DNA of 64,000 nucleotides from an uncultured Microbacterium sp. (GTDB taxonomy: Bacteria; Actinomycetota; Actinomycetes; Actinomycetales; Microbacteriaceae), in NCBI GenBank assembly GCA_913774845.1, contig CAJYJO010000043.1:1-64000 (forward strand), given 5' to 3'. A program made the translations under genes and the position numbers. This document shows, in pieces, positions 18,277-31,041 of the stretch; positions within the stretch are counted from its first letter, which is position 1, and the number at the start of each line of letters is the position of its first letter. The notes under the pieces were generated by a model. The model had not been told where the DNA came from and did not search any database. It saw nothing but the letters and a program-made list of their open reading frames with translations.

Positions 18277-19755
18277 TTACTCGCGTGGCGCGTGCGCCTC
18301 GAGGAACTCGTACATCTCGGTCGTATCCACGCCCGGGAACGCCCCCGTCGGCAGGGTCGCGAGCAGGGTACGGGGCGTGCGCACGTTGGGCCAGGCCTGA
18401 CCGCGCCACGCGGTCTCGAGGTCGGCGGGCGCGCGGCGGCAGCACGTCTCGACCGCGTGCCGCGAGACCCCGCGGTTGGGGGTGTCCCGCCCGCGGAACC
18501 ACCTCGTGTCGTCGAACCGCACGCCCACGCTCACCGAGTGCGCGCCCTCGCTCGACTGCTCGACGCGCGCGGTGCACCAGTACGTCCCGTTGCCGGTGTC
18601 GGTGTACTGGTAGTACGGGTTGAAGAGGTCGTCCTCCTCGAACACCACGCGGCTCGTCCATCGGCGACAGCACATCTGCCCCTCGATCGAACCGAGGCGA
18701 TCGGTGGGGAAGTTCACGTCGTCGTTCTCGTACGCCTTCGTGATCGTCCCCGACTCGTGCACTTTGAGGAAGTGCACCGGGATGCCGAGATGCACCGTCG
18801 CGAGATTGGTGAAGCGGTGCGCGGCCGTCTCGTACGACACCGAGTAGGCGTCGCGCAGGTCTTCGACGCTGATCGTGCGCCGCTCCTTCGCCTCGCGCAG
18901 GGCCGCGACGACGTGCGCCTCGGGCATGAGAAGGGCGCCGGTCAGGTAGTTCGTCTCGACGCGCTGACGGAGGAACTCGTCGTAGCTCGTCGGCTCGCCG
19001 TGCCCGAGGATCCGGCTCGACAGCGCCTGCAGCACGGCCGCACGGGGGTCGCCCTTCGCGACCTTCGTCGACAGGTACAGCCGACCGTGCTTCACATCGG
19101 CGATGCTGCGCGTCGATGACGGCAGGTCGGGCACGTAGTGCAGCGTGAAGCCGAGGTGCGCGGCGATGTCGCTCGCGCCGCGCTGGGTGAGCGGTCCGCC
19201 GGGGTGCTCCACGGCCTCGAGGATTGCGGATGCCACGCGCTCGAGCTCCGGGAAATGGTTGTCCTGCGTGCGCATGAGGCGACGGAGGGCGACGTTCGCG
19301 CGACGGGCCTCCTCCGGCGTCGCCGACCGCTCCTCCCGGAGCCGTTCGATCTCGGCCTGGAGAGCGAGCATCGCGGCGAGCGCCTCGTCGGGCACCGCGC
19401 GCCCCACGCGGAACGGCGCGATCCCGAGCGCTTGGAACGTCTGCCCGCGCATCGCCCGCTCCACCGACAGCTCGAGGGTGGCGCGGGCGTCGAGGGGCTC
19501 GGCATCCAGGATCTGGTCGAGCTTGCACTCCAGAGCACGCGCGATCGCCTGCAGGAGCGTGAGCTTGGCTTCGCGGCGCCCGTTCTCGATCATCGACATC
19601 TGGCTCGGCGCGCGACCGACCGCTCCGGCGAGGTCGTCGAGGGTCATGCCGCGCGCGGTGCGCAGCTGCCGGATGCGGCGGCCGATGGTGAGCGTGTCCA
19701 CTCCCTCATCGTCGAGCGGGAGGGATGCCGAGGGGATCGAGACGCCGGTGTCCAT
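18277..19755 (-). CDS. ramB: RamB-like regulator of acetate/glyoxylate metabolism (XRE HTH + ImmA/IrrE-type domain)
   Basis: The 492-residue protein has an N-terminal XRE helix-turn-helix (residues ~24-84; [32 protein letters not shown]), an IrrE/DUF955-like central part, and the C-terminal DUF2083/ScfR-type region with several Cys ([16 protein letters not shown]). This architecture and length match RamB, which in Corynebacterium controls aceA, aceB and other acetate genes. It is divergent from aceA, as ramB is next to aceA in corynebacteria. The start is ATG 19755. The assignment to RamB rests on architecture and neighbourhood; the ligand is not evident. Confidence 0.82.
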
Positions 19756-19778
19756 ACCGGCAGGTTCTCACAGAATCG

Positions 19779-19796
19779 GAAGATCGGGCGATCTTC
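19779..19796. promoter_or_regulatory. Palindromic operator candidate between ramB-like gene and aceA
   Basis: GAAGATC-N4-GATCTTC is a perfect inverted repeat in the 131-nt divergent gap. Further half-site-like sequences (GAATCTTC, GATCTTCG) follow at about 19803 and 19823. It differs from the corynebacterial RamB site I recall (AAAGTTTGCAAA-like), so the bound protein is uncertain. Confidence 0.55.
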
Positions 19797-19886
19797 ACAA
19801 GGAGAATCTTCGGAACGGGGCTTGATCTTCGCCCACAGTGGTCTCCACGGGGCACCGAGGCCCCGGCATCCCGAAGGAGAACGCTC

Positions 19887-21203
19887 ATGACGATCCAGGC
19901 CACCCCCGCGCAGCCGCCGCTCCGCCCCGGCGACCAGACCGAGACCGCCGCCGAGCTCCGTGCCGCATGGGAGGCCGACCCGCGCTGGGACGGCATCGAG
20001 CGCACGTTCTCGGCCGACGACGTCGTCCGCCTGCGCGGCAGCGTCCGCGAGGAGGCGACCCTCGCCCGCCGCGGGGCCGAGAACCTCTGGAACCTCCTCC
20101 ACACCGAGGAGTACGTCCGCGCCCTCGGCGCGTACACCGGCGGTCAGGCCGTGCAGCAGGTGCGCGCGGGCCTGAAGGCCATCTACCTCTCCGGCTGGCA
20201 GGTCGCCGCCGACGGCAACCTCGCGGGTCAGACCTACCCCGACCAGAGCCTGTACCCCGCCAACTCGGTGCCGGCGGTCGTGCGCCGCATCAACAACGCA
20301 CTGCTGCGCCAGGACCAGATCGAGCGCGCCGAGGGGGAGATCACCCAGGACTGGCTCGCCCCGATCGTCGCCGACGCCGAGGCAGGCTTCGGCGGTCCGC
20401 TGAACGCCTACGAGCTCGCGCAGTCGCTGATTTCGGCGGGGGCCGCCGGCATCCACTGGGAAGACCAGCTCGCGAGCGAGAAGAAGTGCGGTCACCTCGG
20501 CGGCAAGGTGCTCGTGCCGATCCAGCAGCACATCCGGACCCTCAACGCCTCGCGCCTCGCGGCCGACGTCGCGGGCGTGCCGACGGTGATCATCGCACGC
20601 ACCGACGCCCTGGCCGCCGACCTGCTCACGAGCGACATCGACGAGCGCGACCGCGAATTCCTCACCGGCGAGCGCACGAGCGAGGGGTTCTACCGCGTGC
20701 GCCCGGGTTTGGATGCCGTCATCGCCCGCGGCCTCGCCTTCGCCCCCTACGCCGATCTGCTGTGGGTCGAGACCGGGGAGCCGGACATCGAGCTCGCCCG
20801 CCGCTTCGCCGAAGCGATCCACGCCCGCTTCCCGGGCAAGAAGCTCGCCTACAACTGCTCGCCGAGCTTCAACTGGAAGCGCCACCTCGACGAAGCGCAG
20901 ATCGCGACGTTCCAGGCGGAGCTCGCGGCGATGGGCTACGCCTTCCAGTTCATCACCCTCGCGGGCTTCCACGCCGTGAACCACTCGATGTTCGACCTCG
21001 CCCGCGGCTACGCCGAGCGCGCCATGAGCGCGTACGTCGAGCTGCAGGAGGCCGAGTTCGCCGCCGAAGCGAACGGGTACACCGCCACGCGCCACCAGCG
21101 CGAAGCGGGCACCGGATACTTCGACGTCGTCTCGACCGCGCTCAACCCCGACAGCGCAACCCTCGCCCTGGCCGGCTCGACCGAGACGGCCCAGTTCCAC
21201 TGA
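19887..21203 (+). CDS. aceA: Isocitrate lyase
   Basis: Cleaves isocitrate to glyoxylate and succinate, the first step of the glyoxylate shunt. The 438-residue protein has the catalytic signature [11 protein letters not shown] (Cys201) preceded by [13 protein letters not shown], and motifs such as [19 protein letters not shown] and [10 protein letters not shown], all family hallmarks. The length is normal for the short bacterial form. ATG 19887 follows a strong AAGGAGAA ribosome binding site; the upstream part of the frame is not coding. It is divergent from the ramB-like gene and followed by aceB after a repeat-rich gap. Confidence 0.97.
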
Positions 21204-21253
21204 CCCGCGGCGGCCCCGTCGCCCGCGCGAGAACCTCGTCCCACTTATCGCGG

Positions 21254-21312
21254 ACCTCGTCCCACTTATGGCCACCTGAGCCACCCTCAACCAGCCATAA
21301 GTGGGACAAGGT
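21254..21312. repeat. Hairpin repeat, copy 1 (aceA-aceB gap)
   Basis: ACCTCGTCCCACTTATGG at the left pairs with CCATAAGTGGGACAAGGT at the right with one mismatch around a ~23-nt loop. A half copy (CCTCGTCCCACTTAT, 21234-21248) lies just before it. It may serve as the aceA terminator, but the duplicated form at 21385 suggests a REP-like family. Confidence 0.75.
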
Positions 21313-21384
21313 CGCACGCGGCCCCTCCCGCCGCACCTCGCTCTTCGCAACGCACATCGCCCCCTCGTCCCCGTTATGACGGAG

Positions 21385-21440
21385 CTTGTCCCACATATGG
21401 CCGGTCAAGCCACCCCCGACCAGCCATAAGTGGGACAAGG
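21385..21440. repeat. Hairpin repeat, copy 2 (aceA-aceB gap)
   Basis: CTTGTCCCACATATGGC pairs with GCCATAAGTGGGACAAG (one mismatch), and an inner GGTC/GACC pair flanks the loop. The right arm is identical to that of copy 1, AGCCATAAGTGGGACAAGG. It lies 48 nt before the aceB start. Confidence 0.75.
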
Positions 21441-21487
21441 TTCGCGGGGAAAGGGGCACAGCGCGACACAGACAGAAAGCCACGACC

Positions 21488-23167
21488 ATGACCCTCATCA
21501 CCTCTCCCCCGCAGACCACCGCGACCTCCGCGGGCACGACTTCGGCCGGCGCGACGCCGCAGCCCCTGGCATCCGCCCCGCACCTGCGCCTGGAGCGCGC
21601 CCTCGAAGGACGGGATGCCGAGATCCTCACCCCCGCGGCCCTGGCGTTCCTCACCGAGCTGCACGACCGCTTCGCCCGGCGCCGGCACGACCGGCTCGCC
21701 GCGCGCGAGCGCCGCCGCTTCGAGATCGGCACGGGCGACGACCCGCACTTCCGCGCCGACACCGCGCACATCCGCGACGACCCGTCGTGGCGCGTGGCGG
21801 GGGCGGGCCCGGGCCTCGAAGACCGCCGCGTCGAGATCACCGGCCCCACCGACCCGAAGATGACCATCAACGCGCTGAACTCCGGCGCGCGGGTGTGGCT
21901 GGCCGACCAGGAGGATGCCACCAGCCCCACCTGGCGCAACGTGATCGGCGGACAGCTCTCGCTGTTCGACGCGATCCGCGGGCAGCTGTCGTTCACCAGC
22001 CCCGAGGGCAAGCGCTACGAGGTCACCGCCGAGCGCACTCCCACGATCGTGATGCGCCCGCGCGGCTGGCACCTCCCCGAGAAGCATGTGACGTTCATCG
22101 ATCGCGCGGGCCGGGAGCTGCCGGCATCTGGTTCGCTCGTGGACTACGGGCTGTACGTCTTCCACAACGCGCACGCCCTGATCGCGGCGGGCCGGGGGCC
22201 GTACTTCTACCTGCCGAAGATCGAGTCGGCAGAGGAAGCGCGACTGTGGGACGACGTCTTCTCGTTCACCGAGGAGCGCCTGGGTCTCGCGCACGGCACG
22301 ATCCGCGCGACGGTGCTGATCGAGACGCTGCCCGCGGCGTTCGAGATGGAGGAGATCCTCTTCGCCCTCCGCGACCACTGCGCGGGGCTGAACGCCGGCC
22401 GCTGGGACTACATCTTCTCGATCATCAAGACCTACCGCGGGCGCGGGGCGCGGTTCGTGCTCCCCGACCGCAGCGAGGTGACCATGACGGTGCCGTTCAT
22501 GCGGGCCTACACCGAGCTGCTCGTGCGCACCTGCCACAAGCGGGGCGCGTACGCGATCGGCGGCATGAGCGCCTTCATCCCCAACCGCCGCAAGCCCGAG
22601 GTGACGGAAGCGGCGTTCGAGAAGGTCGCCGCCGACAAGCGACGCGAGGCCGGCGACGGCTTCGACGGCACGTGGGTGGCCCACCCCGACCTCATCCCGG
22701 TGGCTCGCGCCGAGTTCGACGCCGTGCTCGGCGACGCGCCGAACCAGCTCGAGCGCCGACGCGAGGACGTGTCGATCGATCCCGCCGATCTGCTCGACCT
22801 GCGGATCGGTCTGCCCGTGACGACGACGGGTGTGCGCGGCAACGTCTCGGTGGCGATCCGCTACATCGAGGCGTGGTTGCGGGGCCTCGGTGCCGTGGCG
22901 ATCGACGATCTCATGGAGGATGCCGCGACCGCCGAGATCTCACGCTCGCAGATCTGGCAGTGGATCCACCAGGACCGCGAGACCGCCGAGGGCGACACGA
23001 TCACCCGGGCCTTCGTCGAGGGCCTGCTCGACGAGGTGCTGGCGGAGGTGCCGCGCACCGACGGAGATCGTTTCGACGACGCCGCCGCGGTGTTCCGCGA
23101 GGTGGCGCTGCGACCGGAGTTCCCGGCGTTCCTCACCCTGCCGGCCTACGCCAAGTACCTCGACTGA
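21488..23167 (+). CDS. aceB: Malate synthase A
   Basis: Condenses glyoxylate with acetyl-CoA to malate. The 559-residue length fits isoform A. Key blocks are visible: DPKMTINALNSGARVWLADQ with ADQEDATSPTW, the IVMRPRGWHLPEKHV segment, PYFYLPKIES, IRATVLIETLPAAFEMEEIL (catalytic Arg and metal-binding Glu region), GRWDYIFSIIKTYR and the C-terminal base-containing DLMEDAATAEISRSQIWQW. The start is ATG 21488; the ribosome binding site is weak. Downstream there is a strong terminator. With aceA it completes the glyoxylate shunt. Confidence 0.97.
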   Translation: MTLITSPPQTTATSAGTTSAGATPQPLASAPHLRLERALEGRDAEILTPAALAFLTELHDRFARRRHDRLAARERRRFEIGTGDDPHFRADTAHIRDDPSWRVAGAGPGLEDRRVEITGPTDPKMTINALNSGARVWLADQEDATSPTWRNVIGGQLSLFDAIRGQLSFTSPEGKRYEVTAERTPTIVMRPRGWHLPEKHVTFIDRAGRELPASGSLVDYGLYVFHNAHALIAAGRGPYFYLPKIESAEEARLWDDVFSFTEERLGLAHGTIRATVLIETLPAAFEMEEILFALRDHCAGLNAGRWDYIFSIIKTYRGRGARFVLPDRSEVTMTVPFMRAYTELLVRTCHKRGAYAIGGMSAFIPNRRKPEVTEAAFEKVAADKRREAGDGFDGTWVAHPDLIPVARAEFDAVLGDAPNQLERRREDVSIDPADLLDLRIGLPVTTTGVRGNVSVAIRYIEAWLRGLGAVAIDDLMEDAATAEISRSQIWQWIHQDRETAEGDTITRAFVEGLLDEVLAEVPRTDGDRFDDAAAVFREVALRPEFPAFLTLPAYAKYLD

Positions 23168-23216: not shown

Positions 23217-24722
23217 TCACGCCGTCGCGGCGGAACGGAAGCGCCGGGGCTTGCCCTCGCCGAGGTCGATGAGGCGGTCCACGCGCGTGACCTCGACGGG
23301 CTGGTCCAGCAGCGCCTCGAGGGCACCGCGGATCATTCGCGCGTCGCCCCCGGCGACCGTCACCTCGACCGCGCCCCCGGCCCCCTGCACGACCGACCAC
23401 CCGAGCGCTCCGTGGCTCTGCAGCTGCTGCGTGAGATCGACCGAGGGAACGCGCACGCCGGAGCCGGTGACGAATTCGGTGTGCGCGCGCCCCTCGAGGT
23501 CGGCGATGCCGACCGCCCCGTCGGGGAGCCTCACGAGACGCCCCACGTCGCCGGTGCGGTACCGCACGAGCGGGAGCAGGGGGTTTTCGCCGGCCGTGAC
23601 GGTGATCTCGCCCCTCTCACCCTCGGGCACGGGGTTGCTCTCGGCATCCAGGATCTCGACGAGCACCCGTCGGTCGAGGACGCGGAACGGCCCGTCATCG
23701 GTGCGCGCGGCGATCGGCCGGGTTTCGTGGAGGCCGTAGACGTCGATGACTGGACACGCGAAAGCGGCCTCGAGCGCGGTGCGCAGCGGAGCCGACAACG
23801 CCATCGCGCCCGAGAACAGCGCGAGCGGTCGCAGCACCTCGCGCAGATCGTCGCTCAACAGCTCGGCGAGGCTCGTGGGGTTGCCCGAGATCACCTGCGG
23901 GTCCGCGTCGGCGAGGAATCGGGAGCGATCGGATGCCGCCCGCCAGGCGCGCGCGTCGAGGTTCACGCGCGCCATCGCCCGGTGCGCGAAGCCGCTGATC
24001 AGCGAGACGTAGGTGAACGCCTGCCGCTGCTGCAGCACCCAGACGAGCGCCAGACGCTCGGCATCCGGAGTCCAGGTCGCCCCCGCACGGCGGGCGAGGT
24101 CGACGAGGAGGTGGAAGCCGCGCGCGACCTCTTCGACGTCGTCGGGGATCACGAGCGCAGCTCCCGTCGAGCCCGAGCTCGTGCCGTGCAGCATGCGGTC
24201 GAGGTCGGCGTCGAGCGGCACGAACGCCGAGACGTCGGCCGCCAGGTCGGCGCGGGCGATCGGGGGGAAGTCCACGAGGGTGCGCAGCCCCGTGTGCCCG
24301 CGATAGAACGGGAGCTTCCGCGCGGTCGCGAGGTGCTCGTCGAGCCAGCCCTCGCGCGGAAGCGGGGTGCGCGTGCGCTCGATCGCCTCAGCGGTCAGCC
24401 GGTCGCCGGTCGCGTGCACCCAGGTGGGAGCGCAGGGGTGGGTGCGCCAGCGGCGGAGGCGCTCCTCGGCGGGGGTGTCGAGGGTCGGCCAGCGCTCGGC
24501 ATCCGTGAGCACCGCCGCGGAGCCCGGGCGGTACTCGCCGAGCGCGAGCGGATCATCGGGGTCGGGTACCGCCGCCGGCTCCGGTTCGCCGCCGACGCTC
24601 GGTGCCGGTGCGGAAGGGGTGGGCACCGCCGGCTGCGATTCGCCGCCACCCGGGGACACGTCTCGGCTGTCACGCCCCGCCACCGGTTCGGGCGCGGGCC
24701 GAAGGGCGCCGGGCTCACTCAC
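23217..24722 (-). CDS. Adenylate-forming (PaaK-like) acyl-CoA ligase-type enzyme
   Basis: The 501-residue protein resembles phenylacetate-CoA ligase-type AMP-binding enzymes. The phosphate loop is TSSGSTGAALVIP, the acceptor region reads DVYGLHETRP (YGxTE-like), and the late AMP motif is RYRTGDVGRLVRL. The C-terminal domain ends EGKPRRFR, placing a Lys near the expected catalytic position. Residues 1-60 are a Pro/Ala/Glu-rich tail-like extension. It would activate a carboxylic acid with ATP; the substrate is unknown. GTG 24722 overlaps the preceding gene by 8 nt, making it the last gene of the MoxR/VWA operon, an unusual partner. Confidence 0.78.
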   Translation of the reverse strand: MSEPGALRPAPEPVAGRDSRDVSPGGGESQPAVPTPSAPAPSVGGEPEPAAVPDPDDPLALGEYRPGSAAVLTDAERWPTLDTPAEERLRRWRTHPCAPTWVHATGDRLTAEAIERTRTPLPREGWLDEHLATARKLPFYRGHTGLRTLVDFPPIARADLAADVSAFVPLDADLDRMLHGTSSGSTGAALVIPDDVEEVARGFHLLVDLARRAGATWTPDAERLALVWVLQQRQAFTYVSLISGFAHRAMARVNLDARAWRAASDRSRFLADADPQVISGNPTSLAELLSDDLREVLRPLALFSGAMALSAPLRTALEAAFACPVIDVYGLHETRPIAARTDDGPFRVLDRRVLVEILDAESNPVPEGERGEITVTAGENPLLPLVRYRTGDVGRLVRLPDGAVGIADLEGRAHTEFVTGSGVRVPSVDLTQQLQSHGALGWSVVQGAGGAVEVTVAGGDARMIRGALEALLDQPVEVTRVDRLIDLGEGKPRRFRSAATA

Positions 24723-25323
24723 TGGAGTACCTCGCCGCCGCCTCCCGCGCACGGGCCTCGGCCAGACGTCGGGCGATCTCCTCGCGGTGCTCGTACGCGG
24801 CGTAGGCCTCGGCGAGCGCGCTGCTGCGCCGCAGCGAGTCGCGGGCCTGCCAGAGCGCCTGCGCGGTCGCGCGGTCCTCTCCCGCGGGAAGGAACCCGGC
24901 CCACAGCAGGAAGGTGCGGGCCGCCTCCTCGCGCCGTTCGTCGTCGGCGAGCCAGTCGAGCGGATCGACCACCGGCGCGACCCGTAGCGCGAGGGCGTCG
25001 ACCGCGCGAAGCGCCCACGGACCGGTGAGGGACGGACGGAAGGGCTCGACCACCTCCTCGCTGGCGAGGAGCCAGAGCCCGATCGCGGCCCCGCGGCGCA
25101 CGCGCGGATCGTCGGCGTAGGCGGCGGACGCGCACTCGGCCCCCACGATGTCGCCCGAGAGCGCCCTGATCGACACGTCGTCGTCGAGGAACGATCGCGG
25201 CACGCTCGACAGCCGCGCGGCGACGGCGTCGAGCGCGGGGCCGGGGCGCGCGAGCGACCACGTCTCGCCCTCGGGCGGGGCCATGCTCGCCCAGACCTTC
25301 AGCAGTTCGTCGGCGTCAGCCAT
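24715..25323 (-). CDS. Unknown helical protein of the MoxR/VWA operon
   Basis: A 202-residue protein without signal peptide or membrane segment. It is rich in Ala, Arg, Glu and Asp, and the C-terminal 55 residues (TAQALWQARDSLRRSSALAE onwards) look like a long charged helix that could form a coiled coil. The middle part, WALRAVDALALRVAPVVDPL, is hydrophobic-helical. I recognise no domain. Start ATG 25323 overlaps the end of the peptidase-VWA gene by 8 nt, and its stop overlaps the ligase start, so it is translated with both. It probably forms part of the same complex. Confidence 0.7.
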   Translation of the reverse strand: MADADELLKVWASMAPPEGETWSLARPGPALDAVAARLSSVPRSFLDDDVSIRALSGDIVGAECASAAYADDPRVRRGAAIGLWLLASEEVVEPFRPSLTGPWALRAVDALALRVAPVVDPLDWLADDERREEAARTFLLWAGFLPAGEDRATAQALWQARDSLRRSSALAEAYAAYEHREEIARRLAEARAREAAARYSSE

Positions 25324-27142
25324 TGAGCACCTCCGCCAGGGTCGCGCACGCCGCGGGGGCGTCGTCCATCGTCTCGAGGTAGAGCGTCTCGTAGCCGGCC
25401 GCTCTCGCAAACGGTTCCACCTGCCGCGACCGGTCGAGGACGACGAGCGTCCCGGTCGACAGCGTGGACCGCACCTGGGCCGCCACCCCGGCTCGGTCCG
25501 GATCTCCCGCCCCGAACATCGACACGAGCCCATCGTCCGAGAGCACGACGAGATGGTGGCGTTCGTCAGCGCCCGCCGGCCCGCGACCCGCGGCGCGGCG
25601 CTCGAGCAGGTCGAGCGGAAAGGTCGTCCCCCCACCGAAGAAGAGCGCGAGGTCGCGCACGACGCGCACCGGATCGCGTGTGAAATCCTCGCTGCCGGCG
25701 ACCTGCCCGGGGCCGGAGAAGCTCGCCACGCGCACCCGACCGCCGCCCCGCAGGATCGAGAGCGCGAGGATCGTGCCCGCCAGCACGGCAGGGGACCCCG
25801 ATTGAGGGTTCGGCATCGATCCGGACGAGTCGATGTAGAGATCCAGGGTGATGCTCGCCTCGCGCGGAAGCGGCTCGTCGGCGAGGAAGGGGCGGCGGCG
25901 CGTCGTGATGCCGGGGACGACGACACCGCCGGCCCGAAGGGTCGCGGGCCAGTCGAGGTCGGCCAGGTCATCGCCGGTCTCCCACGTCTCGACGGGACCG
26001 GGCAGCTCTTCGGCCGGTGTCGACGGTGCGCGCTGCGTGAAGGGACGCACCCATCGCACGGCCTCGGAGCGGTACCACGCCGCGATCACGGCATCCTGGT
26101 CCGCGCCCGCGTACAGCTCGAGAGTCTCCGCGATGCCGAGCGCCTGCCCCGACCCGTTCCCGGCGGACCGCGCCGTGCCCGACCCACGCCCGGTGGGCAC
26201 GGGGAGGGGCGCCTGGAGCCGGCGATCCGCGAGGACGCGACCGAGTTCGGCTGTTCCCGGGGGAACCTCGTCGGCGGAACACGCGCCGCCCGGCATCGAC
26301 GCTCCGGCCGCGCGCTCCGCGACGACATAGGGGGCCATCAGCACGCCGAAGCGCAGGGCCCCCGAGACGGCATCGCCGGCGAACGTGCGCACGAGCTCGG
26401 CGAGCGTGTCGGCGTCGAGACCGGGTCGCGTGATCGTGGCTTCCGCGAGCTCGAGCGCCGCCTGTTCGGCCTCGGCCCGCGCCTCACGCATTCTGTCGTC
26501 GCGCCCGCGGTAGCCGCGCCGCAGCTCCTGACTCTCGGCCGGGGCGGTGGCGGCGCGCGGCGGAGGCGCCGGCGGGGAGTCGACCGCGCACAGAGTTCCC
26601 GCGGGCAGATTCCACAGCAGCTCGTACGTCCGCAGGTACACCCACCAGAGCCGACCGCCGGTGTCGCGCGACGCGCGGTAGAGCGCACGCGACAGCCGCA
26701 CGATCCCCGGCTCGCCCGCTCCGTCGCGCCGCCGCTGCAGCAGGGCCACCCGGGCGTTGACGAGCAGGTCGGTCCACAGGTTCGACAGCATCGCGACGTC
26801 GTCGTCGCGCACCGAACTCGCTCCGGCTGCCACGAGGGTCCGCGCCATCTGGTGACGGATCTTCAGCGAATCCAGACGCGTTCCGGGAGCCAGCGCGTGG
26901 TGGCCGAGCTCGTGCGCGAAGACGCTCTCCATCTCGCCCGCGCCCCCCAGCTCGGCCACCATGCGCGGGTCGACGACGATCGCCGGAGGGAAGCGGAACC
27001 ACGCGGGAGCCCCGTGCTCTCGTCCGGCCCCGGGCTGCAGCTCGGCGTCGTGCATCTGCACGCCCCAGAGCTCCTGCGCGTCCTCCCACGCGCGCCGCAC
27101 GTCCCCCTCGAGCGGCACGCTCCTCGCGCGAGTCCCCGTCAT
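25316..27142 (-). CDS. Metallopeptidase (HExxH)-VWA domain fusion protein
   Basis: The 608-residue protein joins two modules. The N-terminal part has a zinc-peptidase motif, VFAHELGHHALAPG (His77, Glu78, His81), preceded by an IVVDPRMVAEL strand. The C-terminal ~170 residues are a von Willebrand A domain with an intact MIDAS: DSSGS (438-442), a Thr in GGGTTFP near 507, and Asp in LSDDG. Between them lies a helical linker with charged and Ala-rich segments. VWA proteins next to MoxR ATPases act as substrate adaptors in metal-dependent assembly or chaperone systems. ATG 27142 forms an ATGA overlap with the preceding gene. No signal peptide is seen, so it should be cytoplasmic. Confidence 0.82.
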   Translation of the reverse strand: MTGTRARSVPLEGDVRRAWEDAQELWGVQMHDAELQPGAGREHGAPAWFRFPPAIVVDPRMVAELGGAGEMESVFAHELGHHALAPGTRLDSLKIRHQMARTLVAAGASSVRDDDVAMLSNLWTDLLVNARVALLQRRRDGAGEPGIVRLSRALYRASRDTGGRLWWVYLRTYELLWNLPAGTLCAVDSPPAPPPRAATAPAESQELRRGYRGRDDRMREARAEAEQAALELAEATITRPGLDADTLAELVRTFAGDAVSGALRFGVLMAPYVVAERAAGASMPGGACSADEVPPGTAELGRVLADRRLQAPLPVPTGRGSGTARSAGNGSGQALGIAETLELYAGADQDAVIAAWYRSEAVRWVRPFTQRAPSTPAEELPGPVETWETGDDLADLDWPATLRAGGVVVPGITTRRRPFLADEPLPREASITLDLYIDSSGSMPNPQSGSPAVLAGTILALSILRGGGRVRVASFSGPGQVAGSEDFTRDPVRVVRDLALFFGGGTTFPLDLLERRAAGRGPAGADERHHLVVLSDDGLVSMFGAGDPDRAGVAAQVRSTLSTGTLVVLDRSRQVEPFARAAGYETLYLETMDDAPAACATLAEVLNG

Positions 27143-27792
27143 GCGGGCTCCGCGACGTAGATCCACGCGAGGTACGACTCGGCGAAGGTCAGAAGGGATG
27201 CCGCGGGCCCGGAGCCGCGGCTCGTCCCGGAGAGCGGCTCCCCCTCGAGCGCGACCAGTCGCGAGCCCCAGACATCGGCATCGACGCGCCACCAGCGCTC
27301 TCCCGTGCGCACGGCGAAGGCGCCGTCGGCATCGAGCGGTCTCGGGTCGGTGGGCGGGGCGGTCCACGCGCCCCCGAGCCCGGCGAAGCCGCCCACCGCG
27401 CAGACGTATCCGCGCTGGCCCGGGCGGCCCGGCCACCAGAAGCGGTCGGTGCGCTGGTGCTCGGCGAACGCGTCGAGGTCGCCCTCGGCGAGACCGAGCG
27501 CCGCCGCGGCGGCCACCGGCGGAACGTCGGCCAGGTGCGCGAGGGCATCGTCGCGGAGGCCCGGCACTCCGGCGCGCCAGCCCGAGATCCCCGCGAGCGC
27601 GACGACGAGATCGCTCGAGGCATCGACCGGCAGCGCCCTCTGCCCCGCGGCGAGCGCGTGCCGGAACCGCTCGGCCGACCCGCCCGCCGCCTCGACGTTG
27701 ATCCCCGCGCGCTCGAAGTCGAGCCCCGGGACGTCGGTCGGCACCCCGGTCGGCGGCTCGGTGTCGGCGAGATGCCCGGGGCGGCGGATCAC
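27139..27792 (-). CDS. Unknown protein of the MoxR/VWA operon
   Basis: A 217-residue acidic protein with many Trp, Gly and Pro residues (RTDRFWWPGRPGQRGYV, TGERWWRVDADVWGSR). It lacks membrane segments. The C-terminal half looks strand-rich, and the N-terminal half holds Ala-rich helices. I recognise no family. GTG 27792 overlaps the MoxR stop (GTGA), and its own stop overlaps the peptidase-VWA start, so it lies between ATPase and adaptor in a tightly coupled operon. By analogy with other MoxR operons it may be a substrate or a scaffold. Confidence 0.7.
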   Translation of the reverse strand: MIRRPGHLADTEPPTGVPTDVPGLDFERAGINVEAAGGSAERFRHALAAGQRALPVDASSDLVVALAGISGWRAGVPGLRDDALAHLADVPPVAAAAALGLAEGDLDAFAEHQRTDRFWWPGRPGQRGYVCAVGGFAGLGGAWTAPPTDPRPLDADGAFAVRTGERWWRVDADVWGSRLVALEGEPLSGTSRGSGPAASLLTFAESYLAWIYVAEPA

Positions 27793-29360
27793 GCCCGCCC
27801 CTCGACCCAGCGGAGGTAGGCCGTGTAGCGCTGGTGCAGGTACTTCAGGGCGGTCAGGTCGTCGAAATCACGGCCGTACAGCTTGCCCGCGGTCGACGCG
27901 GCGCGCAGGCGTGCCTCGATCGCCGTCAGACGTCGCGAGGCCTCGACGGCGGAGACCCCGTCGAGTCCGGCGTCCAGTTGCGCGAGGAGCTCTCCGACCG
28001 GGTCCTGGCGTCCGCGTCCCAGCGCGTCGTACTGGCGGCACGACTCGGCGAACAGGTCGCTCAGCCAGCTCATGAGGTCGGTCGACAACTCGCGCTCGAC
28101 GCCGATGTCGAAGCGGGGGTGCGTCGGGTTCGGGAGCAGCTTGCCGCGCAGCACGAAGGGCACCATCGCCGCCACGTCGGCGAGCGACACCTCGTCACGC
28201 CCGCGGAACCACGCGACCGCCTTGGCATAGACGATGAGGGTCTGCAGCGCGCGGACCGACAGACCGTTCAGCGTCTGCGCGCCGAGGTCGGCCATGAGGT
28301 CGGCTCCCGAGTTCGCCTCGATGGTCTCGGCGACCTTTCCGCCGCCCGTCGTGACCGTGTCCTTCGTGCGGTACTCGAAGCGTCGCCCGCCGCCCTGCAC
28401 GAACTCGAAGTGGCTGAGGAAGAACTCCAGACGCCGTCGCACGCCGGCGGGGACGGGCACCGCGCGGATCGCCGCGCGCATCGCCGTCTGCTCGTCGGGG
28501 GCGAAGACCAGCTCGGCGGGGACGTGCTCCTCGGGCTTCTCTCCCGCCTCGACCCGCGTGATCAGTTCGTCGAGGAAGCGGCTGTTGAATCCCGCCGCCG
28601 GCACCGTGACGTCCATGCGGTCGCGCAGCGCCTGGATGACGGGGAAGGTGCCTCCGCCCGCGTCGTCGTTCGCGGTGAAGAACCAGCTCTCGACTCCGGA
28701 CGCCGGGGCCGTGCGGCGGAGCTGATCGTGGCTCTCGACGTACCCCTCGGCGACCATCGTCAGCAGTGCCGACTGCGTCTTCGTGGGGATGCGGTTGTAC
28801 TCGTCGATGATCTTGACCGGTCGCGACAGCCAGTCGCGCCACGCGACGCCCACCTCGGCGAGACTCGCGGCGTTCATGAGGTCTCGCGGGAGAGGGATGC
28901 CGACCAGGTCGCTGATCGTGAGCTGCGGCTGCCCCTGCTGCACCCCGCGGCGCACGTCGTCGGGGGTGGAACCGGCGAGCACGCCCATGAGCACCGCGAC
29001 GGTCGTCTTGCCGCGTCCCGGACCGCCGACGAGAAGGCACTTGCCCCCGACCGCGAAGCTCAGCAGCGGCAGCAGGACGTTCGACGAGAACGACGCCTCG
29101 TCGGGCAGCGTCAGCTCGGCGCCGGCGTCGCCGAGGGTGAAGGCGAGAGGCGCACCGGAGGAGAACTCGACGTCGTAGTACGGCGAGATCACCGCGCGGT
29201 TGACGATCCAGTAGTAGGTCTGGCGGAGCTTCTCGTCGATCGGCACCGCGACCGTCTCGGCCGGGCCGCGGAACAGGTCGGCGGCCCTCATCGGGGCCGT
29301 CCCCTCCCCCGCGCCGGTCGTGGTGGGTGCCTGCGAGAGCTTGTGCCAGCGGTCCGCCAT
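27789..29360 (-). CDS. MoxR-family AAA+ ATPase
   Basis: The 523-residue ATPase has Walker A GGPGRGKTT (about 112-120), Walker B KIIDEY (183-188), sensor 1 in WFFTANDD (Asn231), and an arginine-finger region after QALRDRMDV. The C-terminal ~150 residues go beyond the minimal MoxR core and include a helical part ending LHQRYTAYLRWVEG. MoxR ATPases act with VWA proteins to remodel or mature target complexes; the partner VWA gene is two genes downstream. ATG 29360 has TAGGCT 6 nt before it, so the operon is probably transcribed leaderless from there. No ribosome binding site is evident. Confidence 0.88.
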   Translation of the reverse strand: MADRWHKLSQAPTTTGAGEGTAPMRAADLFRGPAETVAVPIDEKLRQTYYWIVNRAVISPYYDVEFSSGAPLAFTLGDAGAELTLPDEASFSSNVLLPLLSFAVGGKCLLVGGPGRGKTTVAVLMGVLAGSTPDDVRRGVQQGQPQLTISDLVGIPLPRDLMNAASLAEVGVAWRDWLSRPVKIIDEYNRIPTKTQSALLTMVAEGYVESHDQLRRTAPASGVESWFFTANDDAGGGTFPVIQALRDRMDVTVPAAGFNSRFLDELITRVEAGEKPEEHVPAELVFAPDEQTAMRAAIRAVPVPAGVRRRLEFFLSHFEFVQGGGRRFEYRTKDTVTTGGGKVAETIEANSGADLMADLGAQTLNGLSVRALQTLIVYAKAVAWFRGRDEVSLADVAAMVPFVLRGKLLPNPTHPRFDIGVERELSTDLMSWLSDLFAESCRQYDALGRGRQDPVGELLAQLDAGLDGVSAVEASRRLTAIEARLRAASTAGKLYGRDFDDLTALKYLHQRYTAYLRWVEGRA

Positions 29361-29369
29361 CGCGCCAGC

Positions 29370-30440
29370 CTAACCGCCGGCCCGCCGGCGGAGCTCCTCT
29401 TGCTCGGCGTGCGGTCGACCCTCCATCGGAGCGGCGAACGAGGTCGCCTCGGCCACGGCTCGGCGGATGGCGGGAAGGGCGGATGCCACCCGCTCGGCCA
29501 CGCTCCCTCGCACCTCGAGCCACGGCACCGGCTGCGCCGCGAGCACCTCGCGGAAGCGCTCCTGCATGTCGGCGCGGATGTGTTCGCCGTCGCGCATCCC
29601 GTCCTGCACGAAGGGGATCTCGTCGCCCGTGAGGATGTACAGCGCAGGGCGGTGCGCCGCAGCCCGCTCGAAGATGCGCGGCGCGGGGGCGCCCACGTAC
29701 CGCTCGTGCCAGAGGGCGGTGGCGAGGACGTCGGTATCGCAGACCAGCACGGAACGCGGCGCGCGGCGCACGGCATCCTGTTCCCAGGCGATCTGCCGGT
29801 CGACGACGAGGTCGAACTCGTCACTGCGCCAGGGCGCATCGAGCCCGCCTTCGCGCGTCTCGCTCAGCTCGCGACCGTACTCGGGCACCCAGAGCGTGCC
29901 GAGCTCGGCGGCGAGCGCCTCGGCGAGCGTGGTCGAGCCCGTCGACTCGGCGCCGAGAACGACGACCCGCGCGGCGAGGTCGGCACGAACCGCCGGCGAC
30001 AGCTCATGCCAGTGGGCGTCGAGATCGGCGCGGATCGCCGTTCCCGAGACGGGGTTGAGGCGTCGACCGGGGTCGACCTGCACCCAGTCGGCACCGAGAC
30101 GACGCGCGAGCTCCGCCCCGTACTCGTCGGAGGTGAAGACGACGTCGACCGGCTCGTCGAGCAGGCCCGCGATGGTCGCCGTGTGCGCGTCCCACGCCAT
30201 GTCGGAGGCGAAGTCGACGGGGGTGTCGTCGAGCAGGTCCACCACGCGCACGGTCGGGTGGTCGGCGCGCACCCACGCGGCCCGCTTGTCGAGCGGGATG
30301 GACTCGACGGATGCCGCGATCACCTCGACCGTGACCCGCTCGCACGCGCGGACGGCCGAGCGGATGAGGTGCGCGTGCCCGACGTGGAGGGGATAGAACT
30401 TGCCGACGACCACGCCGTGGCGGTAGCGGCGCTCAGGCAC
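29370..30440 (-). CDS. nadR: NadR-type bifunctional NMN adenylyltransferase / ribosylnicotinamide kinase
   Basis: The 356-residue protein starts with a nucleotidyltransferase domain: VVVGKFYPLHVGHAHLI holds the HxGH motif, and the matching ISTxxIR-type motif is SGTAIRADLDAHW. The C-terminal half is a P-loop kinase-like domain with GAESTGSTTLAEAL at about residue 175 and an LVCDTDVLATALWHE strand. In canonical NadR the P-loop has Lys (GKS/T); here that position is Ser, so the kinase step may be altered. It overlaps pnuC by 8 nt (GTG 30440), which supports a role in ribosylnicotinamide salvage to NAD. The longer frame to 30464 is unlikely. Confidence 0.85.
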   Translation of the reverse strand: MPERRYRHGVVVGKFYPLHVGHAHLIRSAVRACERVTVEVIAASVESIPLDKRAAWVRADHPTVRVVDLLDDTPVDFASDMAWDAHTATIAGLLDEPVDVVFTSDEYGAELARRLGADWVQVDPGRRLNPVSGTAIRADLDAHWHELSPAVRADLAARVVVLGAESTGSTTLAEALAAELGTLWVPEYGRELSETREGGLDAPWRSDEFDLVVDRQIAWEQDAVRRAPRSVLVCDTDVLATALWHERYVGAPAPRIFERAAAHRPALYILTGDEIPFVQDGMRDGEHIRADMQERFREVLAAQPVPWLEVRGSVAERVASALPAIRRAVAEATSFAAPMEGRPHAEQEELRRRAGG

Positions 30441-31041
30441 GGGTCTCCGCCGCGGGCACGGCATCCGCCGACTCGTTCTGCACGCGGCGCCAGGAGAGCA
30501 GGCCGCCCACGCACAGCACGATGAACAGGGCGTAGAGAGCGGCGATGATCCACAGTCCCGTGGCGATCGAGAGCGCGACGAAGGCGATGTCCACGCCGAT
30601 CCACACGAACCAGTTCTCGATCCACTTGCGGTTGAGCATGTACTGCGCGACGAGGCTCGCCGAGGTGGTCGCCGCGTCCGCGAGAGCGACCTGCGAGTCG
30701 GTGAAGGTGGCGAGCACCCAGGTCAGCAGGGCTGCCCCCGCCACCGCGGCGACGATGAGCCAGGGCACAGCGCGCCGGGGTGTCCGGGCGACGTACTCGC
30801 GGTCGTGCTCGACCCCGCGCGTCCAACGCCACCATCCGTGCACACCGAGCACGAGGTACACGATCTGCAGGGCCGCGCTGGCGTAGAGGCCGGCGGGCAC
30901 GAACACGACGAGGAACACGAGGTTGTTCGCGATCCCGATCGGGTAGGTCCACACGTTCCTCCGTGCGGCCAGCAGCACGCACGCCGCACCCGTCGCGAAG
31001 CCGAGGATCTGCGTCCACTCGGCGAGAATCCACTCGATCAC
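30433..31041 (-). CDS. pnuC: Nicotinamide riboside transporter PnuC
   Basis: The 202-residue membrane protein has about seven hydrophobic segments and the PnuC hallmarks WTYPIGIANNLVFLVVF near the N-terminus, YASAALQIVYLVLGVHGWWRW, and SLVAQYMLNRKWIENWFVWI in the third quarter. PnuC mediates facilitated uptake of nicotinamide riboside, trapped by phosphorylation in the cell. The coupled downstream nadR provides that step. The start is GTG 31041, with TAGGCT 6 nt before it, suggesting a leaderless transcript. I saw no NAD-responsive riboswitch upstream. Confidence 0.93.
   Translation of the reverse strand: MIEWILAEWTQILGFATGAACVLLAARRNVWTYPIGIANNLVFLVVFVPAGLYASAALQIVYLVLGVHGWWRWTRGVEHDREYVARTPRRAVPWLIVAAVAGAALLTWVLATFTDSQVALADAATTSASLVAQYMLNRKWIENWFVWIGVDIAFVALSIATGLWIIAALYALFIVLCVGGLLSWRRVQNESADAVPAAETRA

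Follow-up and report, generated by a model that had tools for sequence, protein, structure and literature searches.

The first 64,000 nucleotides of contig CAJYJO010000043.1 from an uncultured Microbacterium sp. (assembly GCA_913774845.1), hereafter the window, carry a set of five overlapping genes, g1 to g5, which encode a divergent MoxR ATPase (g1), a protein that combines a HExxH motif with a VWA domain (g3), a PaaK-like adenylate-forming enzyme (g5), and two proteins without recognised domain (g2 and g4). In several phyla, these two families and the divergent MoxR branch are tied together with an almost constant gene order, and g1–g5 are genetically coupled to the salvage of nicotinamide riboside, which points to an undescribed link with the metabolism of nicotinamide adenine dinucleotide (NAD); among the papers listed by searches of a single open-access library, none is on this gene set. 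We give an even chance to the reading that g1–g5 and the upstream genes for PnuC and a NadR-like enzyme form one functional unit, a MoxR–VWA remodelling machine with a supply of NAD from nicotinamide riboside. The seven genes lie in the window as follows, in the order of transcription.

31041-30433, minus strand: PnuC, nicotinamide riboside importer, 202 aa (TIGR01528, PF04973)
30464-29370, minus strand: NadR-like protein, nicotinamide mononucleotide adenylyltransferase and ribosylnicotinamide kinase, 364 aa from the ATG at 30464 (TIGR01526, AAA_28)
29360-27789, minus strand: g1, divergent MoxR AAA+ ATPase, 523 aa (AAA_lid_2 above cut-off, AAA_3 near cut-off)
27792-27139, minus strand: g2, N-terminal helices and C-terminal beta domain, 217 aa, GTG start (no Pfam family)
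27142-25316, minus strand: g3, zincin-like HExGHH domain and C-terminal VWA domain with a metal-ion-dependent adhesion site (MIDAS), 608 aa
25323-24715, minus strand: g4, helical protein with an invariant C-terminal Glu, 202 aa
24722-23217, minus strand: g5, PaaK-like adenylate-forming enzyme, 501 aa, GTG start (AMP-binding)

Conservation of the five genes

The initial annotation described five overlapping genes for a MoxR protein, g2, a HExxH–VWA fusion, g4 and a PaaK-like ligase, and so we find them: successive genes of the window overlap by 4, 4, 8 and 8 nt (the starts of g3, g4 and g5 were assigned by reading the sequence). With three to four candidates scored per genome, the g3 gene turned up in 16 of 398 genomes of the family sample and, in the class sample of 296, in a single genome, that of the window, which has one copy of it. 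In all of the 15 other family genomes with g3, the five genes stand in the same order (in L027, g5 is in two pieces). The g1 alignment, when used to scan named genomes, turned up 72 loci; distant members are under-counted among them because the scan used two peptide patterns derived from the alignment of one family. All five genes are found at E ≤ 1e-3 in 57 of the 72 loci, in the same order in 56 and rearranged in one (L070, Mycolicibacterium houstonense, where g3 precedes g1 and there are two partial g4 and g5 matches). Five Flavobacterium loci have g1, g3, g4 and g5, with g2 below threshold; the remaining loci lie at contig ends, have the set partly scattered (L110), or show little apart from g1 (L104–L107). 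The carriers of all five genes include Microbacterium, Agromyces, Frigoribacterium, Agreia, Cryobacterium, Nocardioides and Mycolicibacterium and, outside the actinobacteria, a Flavobacterium, a planctomycete and a desulfobacterial metagenome-assembled genome. Since the order is kept in 15/15 family genomes, in 56/72 named loci and in the five Flavobacterium loci, a grouping of the five genes by chance is excluded, and it is not the case that most homologous operons lack the ligase or the peptidase, which would have spoken against a single system.

The overlaps recur as well: -4 nt for g1/g2 in 51 of 62 loci and for g2/g3 in 54 of 62, -8 nt for g3/g4 in 55 of 63 and for g4/g5 in 40 of 61, in counts for which a script chose the starts and favoured short distances. 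Pairwise distances among g1, g3, g4 and g5 are correlated (0.93–0.96 over 50 loci; 0.79–0.92 over the 43 actinobacterial ones), which is weak support since the correlations lack a control for the species tree.

Residue conservation was read from deep alignments of hand-picked rows, thinned at 90% identity (24 rows for g1, 44 for g2, 41 for g3, 37 for g4, 22 for g5). They omit L056, L070, L089, L094, L104, L105, L106, L107 and L111, of which L105 was returned by hand for g3 and L104–L106 for g1. The first alignments omit L029 (A2), L027, L031, L032, L034 and L038 (A3) and L027 (A4), owing to wrong script-chosen starts or to the split g5.

In Riflebacteria (L110), g5 lies outside the cluster, elsewhere in the genome, and a gene on the opposite strand (L110:14501-17011), a sensor kinase by eye, separates g3 and g4. 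In a myxococcal locus (L105:8102-13257), a WD40 protein, a g1-like MoxR protein and a g3-like HExxH–VWA protein follow one another; no g2, g4 or g5 was detected there.

Coupling to nicotinamide riboside salvage

The PnuC of the window scores 80.3 bits with TIGR01528 (cut-off 42.45) and 168 bits with PF04973. Its neighbour reaches 189 bits with TIGR01526, below the equivalog cut-off of 341, with a match that covers 2-318 of 325, and is filed as NadR-like; it has AAA_28 (105 bits) and CTP_transf_like (20.3 bits, just below the cut-off of 21). It ends 9 nt before g1, and a GTG at 30440 is an alternative to its ATG start.

PnuC and NadR are part of the cluster at 43 of the 72 named loci. In 42 of these they lie directly upstream, NadR ending no more than 120 nt from g1; the remaining one is Riflebacteria, with the pair placed after g4, at the opposite end. 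Among 119 genomes of the genus, PnuC is present in 13 of the 13 that have g1, by coordinates approximately 1.7 kb upstream of it, versus 28 of the 106 that do not (26%). PnuC is also present in all of 25 operon genomes checked. In 16 of them it is not adjacent to the set, and in the 12 of these 16 that were inspected, NadR adjoins PnuC at all 13 PnuC loci, once in a shortened form. In the family sample, PnuC is found in 148/398 genomes, including all 16 with g3, versus 35% of the genomes without the set (Fisher 8e-8); such Fisher values are too small because related genomes are not independent. At a threshold of 168 bits, which was set after seeing the data, PnuC is found in 16/16 operon genomes versus 5/382 others. 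Genomes G314, G515, G580, G602 and G628 of this sample have a high-scoring PnuC and no g3 match. The distances between NadR sequences correlate with those of g1, g3, g4 and g5 (0.81–0.85, 50 loci), which is weak support for the same reason as given above for the five genes.

The coupling of g1–g5 to nicotinamide riboside salvage is strong, not absolute, and we assign PnuC and NadR to the same unit as g1–g5. The initial annotation was right to see one conserved set in the five genes, and drew its boundary too narrowly in omitting PnuC and NadR upstream. Its proposal that an ATPase–VWA complex would control a peptidase and the activation of a small molecule is a hypothesis.

The proteins of the set

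The g1 protein has AAA_lid_2 (38 bits, cut-off 22.7, in a Pfam search at E ≤ 1) and AAA_3, which scores 26.3 bits with the protein, under the cut-off of 27, and 29.8 bits, over it, in the search of the genome. Across the 24 sequences, which come from several phyla, its residues of Walker A, Walker B and sensor 1 vary little or not at all. The protein has both the AAA core and the lid of a MoxR-type AAA+ protein. It is distant from the three other MoxR proteins of the same genome, the best local match being 32% over 114 residues. The nearest named relatives are strains of Microbacterium testaceum (96% in g1).

The g3 protein gives three weak Pfam matches, all below cut-off, of which M48 (E 0.006) covers the HExxH motif. 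In the 41 sequences aligned, HExGHH, Asn121, Asp125 and Asn129 are invariant, as are Asp438, Ser440, Ser442 and Asp536 of the MIDAS; together with Thr506, these give the DxSxS-T-D pattern expected of the VWA partner in a pair of the NorQD kind. The predicted structure of g3 has a mean predicted local distance difference test score (pLDDT) of 86.8 and shows a VWA fold; its best Foldseek match is NorD, and it also matches the VWA domain of midasin.

The g5 protein has an AMP-binding domain (38.6 bits, Pfam cut-off 29.9) and is under every NCBIfam cut-off (67 bits with DVU1553_fam_AMP, cut-off 300), although NCBIfam places it near the PaaK and DVU_1553 families; its relatives in the PDB are PaaK structures. 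The A3, A5 and A7 motifs that define an ANL/PaaK enzyme, SG(S/T)TG, Y-x-x-x-E and RYRT-x-D, are present throughout the 22 rows, RYRTRD being the one variant, and the A10 lysine motif (GEGKPRR-like) is found in 18 of them, all actinobacterial and including the window. The HExxH, MIDAS, Walker and adenylation residues are conserved, as one system would have it, and do not vary freely, except that the A10 lysine motif is absent from the non-actinobacterial rows as aligned.

For g2, no Pfam family is found at E ≤ 1, and its AlphaFold model (pLDDT 94), whose C-terminal beta domain carries a GGFxGxGG-like motif, has no PDB match at E ≤ 0.001. For g4, Pfam gives a single match at chance level (E 0.33). 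The last residue of g4 is Glu in 64 of 64 intact homologues from the named loci, and also in the Mycobacterium-sample genome G874. This residue is not merely forced by the overlap with g5, because 9 of the 64 genes end with TAA or TAG stops. We regard it as a candidate ligand of the MIDAS of g3. An identity of g4 with Pup-like modifiers was considered and rejected: such modifiers have a C-terminal GG(E/Q) tail, and the tails of g4 (RYSSE, TYGRE and others) never have GG before the last residue.

Genomic surroundings

Genes that by eye resemble those of isocitrate lyase and malate synthase (19725-23167, plus strand) adjoin the 3' end of the operon in the window, and malate synthase-like genes occupy the corresponding place in L040 and L045. 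Among the flanking genes listed for 20 representatives, called with a purpose-written gene caller, no further neighbour of the seven genes recurs, and a few open reading frames several kb away from them are common to two to four representatives.

Proposed function and alternatives

The order, conservation, co-occurrence and domain content of the genes are observations, while the mechanism that we propose takes NorQD as its model, because the predicted g3 structure matches the VWA domains of NorD and midasin. In NorQD, the VWA domain is reported to be seated in the AAA ring, with the MIDAS presumed to engage an acidic residue on the target (PMC13036017, PMC9976466). By analogy, g1 would form a hexamer in which the VWA domain of g3 is seated, in the manner of NorD in NorQ. 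The metal of the g3 MIDAS would grip an acidic ligand, for which the invariant terminal glutamate of g4 is the best candidate, and g4, with g2, could be an adaptor or a substrate carrier. ATP-driven motion would then remodel a target, with the chemistry perhaps performed or permitted by g3, through its zincin domain, and by the ligase g5. Nicotinamide riboside, taken up by PnuC and converted by NadR, would provide this process with NAD+, which could be a substrate or a cofactor, or could replace what the process consumes.

Several observations weigh against this scheme. The MIDAS threonine, Thr506, is substituted in 4 of the 41 g3 rows (L095, L097, L098 and L103, which are from Flavobacterium, Desulfobacterales and one planctomycete); by VIA, NorD and midasin rank level with many unrelated VWA domains; the structure models are of single chains, and the binding of g4 to the MIDAS is what we infer. 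The A10 motif is missing in the four non-actinobacterial g5 rows (L095 and three Flavobacterium, where the local alignment is unsure), and G874, whose g5 is outside the 22-row alignment, has a changed A3 motif in that protein. As to the link with NAD, 20 loci with ordered g1–g5 have no adjacent PnuC–NadR, and G874, which shares 51% identity with M. brisbanense in g1, has g1–g5 and no PnuC match. In the Mycobacterium sample, the association with PnuC is weak (2/3 versus 8/75, p 0.04), and at least four genomes have PnuC without g1. Within the actinobacteria (n = 43), the correlation of NadR distances with those of the set is 0.57–0.68, below that among g1, g3, g4 and g5.

It may be, then, that PnuC–NadR is merely a frequent neighbour and that g1–g5 are unrelated to NAD; G874, the g1-less genomes of the genus that have PnuC and the weaker NadR correlation all agree with this. 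We nevertheless hold it unlikely, since PnuC–NadR is found in the cluster in actinobacteria and Flavobacterium as well as, at the opposite end, in Riflebacteria, and since the pair is present elsewhere in 12/12 of the non-adjacent genomes inspected. The set could instead be biosynthetic, g5 activating the carboxylate of a molecule derived from NAD or from nicotinamide riboside, with PnuC and NadR supplying the precursor and the MoxR–VWA pair loading an enzyme with the product or with a metal. The ANL motifs of g5 and the link with nicotinamide riboside salvage are in keeping with such a pathway, and so is the gene that follows g5 in G874, which by eye has the CxxxCxxC motif of radical S-adenosylmethionine proteins; another gene with this motif lies beside the unlinked PnuC–NadR of the planctomycete G799. 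In G874 (L156:15226-17054), the next gene along is by eye possibly that of a pyridoxal phosphate enzyme. Yet no further biosynthetic gene recurs beside the seven among the flanking genes listed, the A10 lysine motif is missing in Flavobacterium and the planctomycete, and G874 departs from the regular A3 motif; we find the biosynthetic explanation rather unlikely.

That the set is an anti-phage (conflict) system which uses up NAD+ and restores it by way of PnuC–NadR is quite improbable in our opinion. The occurrence of the set in the genus is patchy (g1 in 13/119 genomes), as it would be for such a system, and MoxR–vWA pairs are the cores of predicted conflict systems (Kaur et al. 2020, PMC7159879). 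In two planctomycete loci (L093:1822-2832 and L095:11504-12526), moreover, an additional gene between g1 and g2 encodes a protein whose C-terminal part resembles nucleoside 2-deoxyribosyltransferases (PF05014, E 7e-7 and just over the cut-off in L095, below it in L093). On the other hand, PADLOC yields two weak P-loop matches for g1 and nothing more, no effector domain of conflict systems was recognised in the set, g3 has no match in plasmids nor, by six peptide patterns, in viral contigs, and the flanking genes listed look ordinary by eye, such as those of UvrB and UvrA in Schumannella or malate synthase in Microbacterium. More speculative still, and in our view very improbable, is a machine for protein modification, in which g5 would adenylate the terminal glutamate of g4, g4 would be joined to a target, perhaps an enzyme that handles NAD, the complex of g1 with g3 would extract this target and the zincin part of g3 would remove g4, the NAD+ from PnuC–NadR being an input or a readout.

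Comparison with known systems

The MoxR–VWA pairs of the predicted ternary conflict systems have their core in common with g1 and g3, while the third components given for these systems (VMAP, iSTAND, FtsH, or a beta-propeller fused to the vWA protein; PMC7159879) were not recognised in the set; g2 and g4 have no Pfam family above chance level and no PADLOC match, and the one WD40 gene next to a g1 is that of the myxococcal locus.

The initial annotation considered that a peptidase–VWA fusion next to a MoxR-type ATPase was foreign to known arrangements. This did not hold, as the DUF2201 proteins (PF13203, which we take to be COG3864) have HExxH followed by VWA, and their genes adjoin that of an AAA protein with a Walker A motif in 7 of the 9 loci inspected, out of 12. 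The combination of HExxH–VWA and AAA genes is thus already known and not itself new. When the zincin part of g3 is compared with four PF13203 proteins by hhalign, the match has E 1.4e-5 and probability 79.8 over 65 columns, and both alignments have the same succession of HExxH, a NxxxDxxxN-like stretch and VWA. The difference is that g3 falls short of the PF13203 Pfam model, which gives no match at E ≤ 1 with the g3 of the window, of Flavobacterium (L098) or of L105. As for g5, it has the ANL adenylation motifs in common with the AMP-dependent ligases of the PaaK and DVU_1553 families, whose gene context differs from its own.

NorQ–NorD, which is involved in the insertion of iron into nitric oxide reductase, likewise consists of a MoxR ATPase and a partner with a C-terminal VWA domain and a MIDAS. 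To our knowledge, the N-terminal domain of NorD has no HExxH, and NorQ–NorD has no known counterpart of g2, g4, g5, PnuC or NadR. We know of few MoxR–VWA machines whose targets have been identified, and a set that comes with its own candidate adaptors, ligase and nutrient route therefore gives a concrete handle on the targets of this kind of machine.

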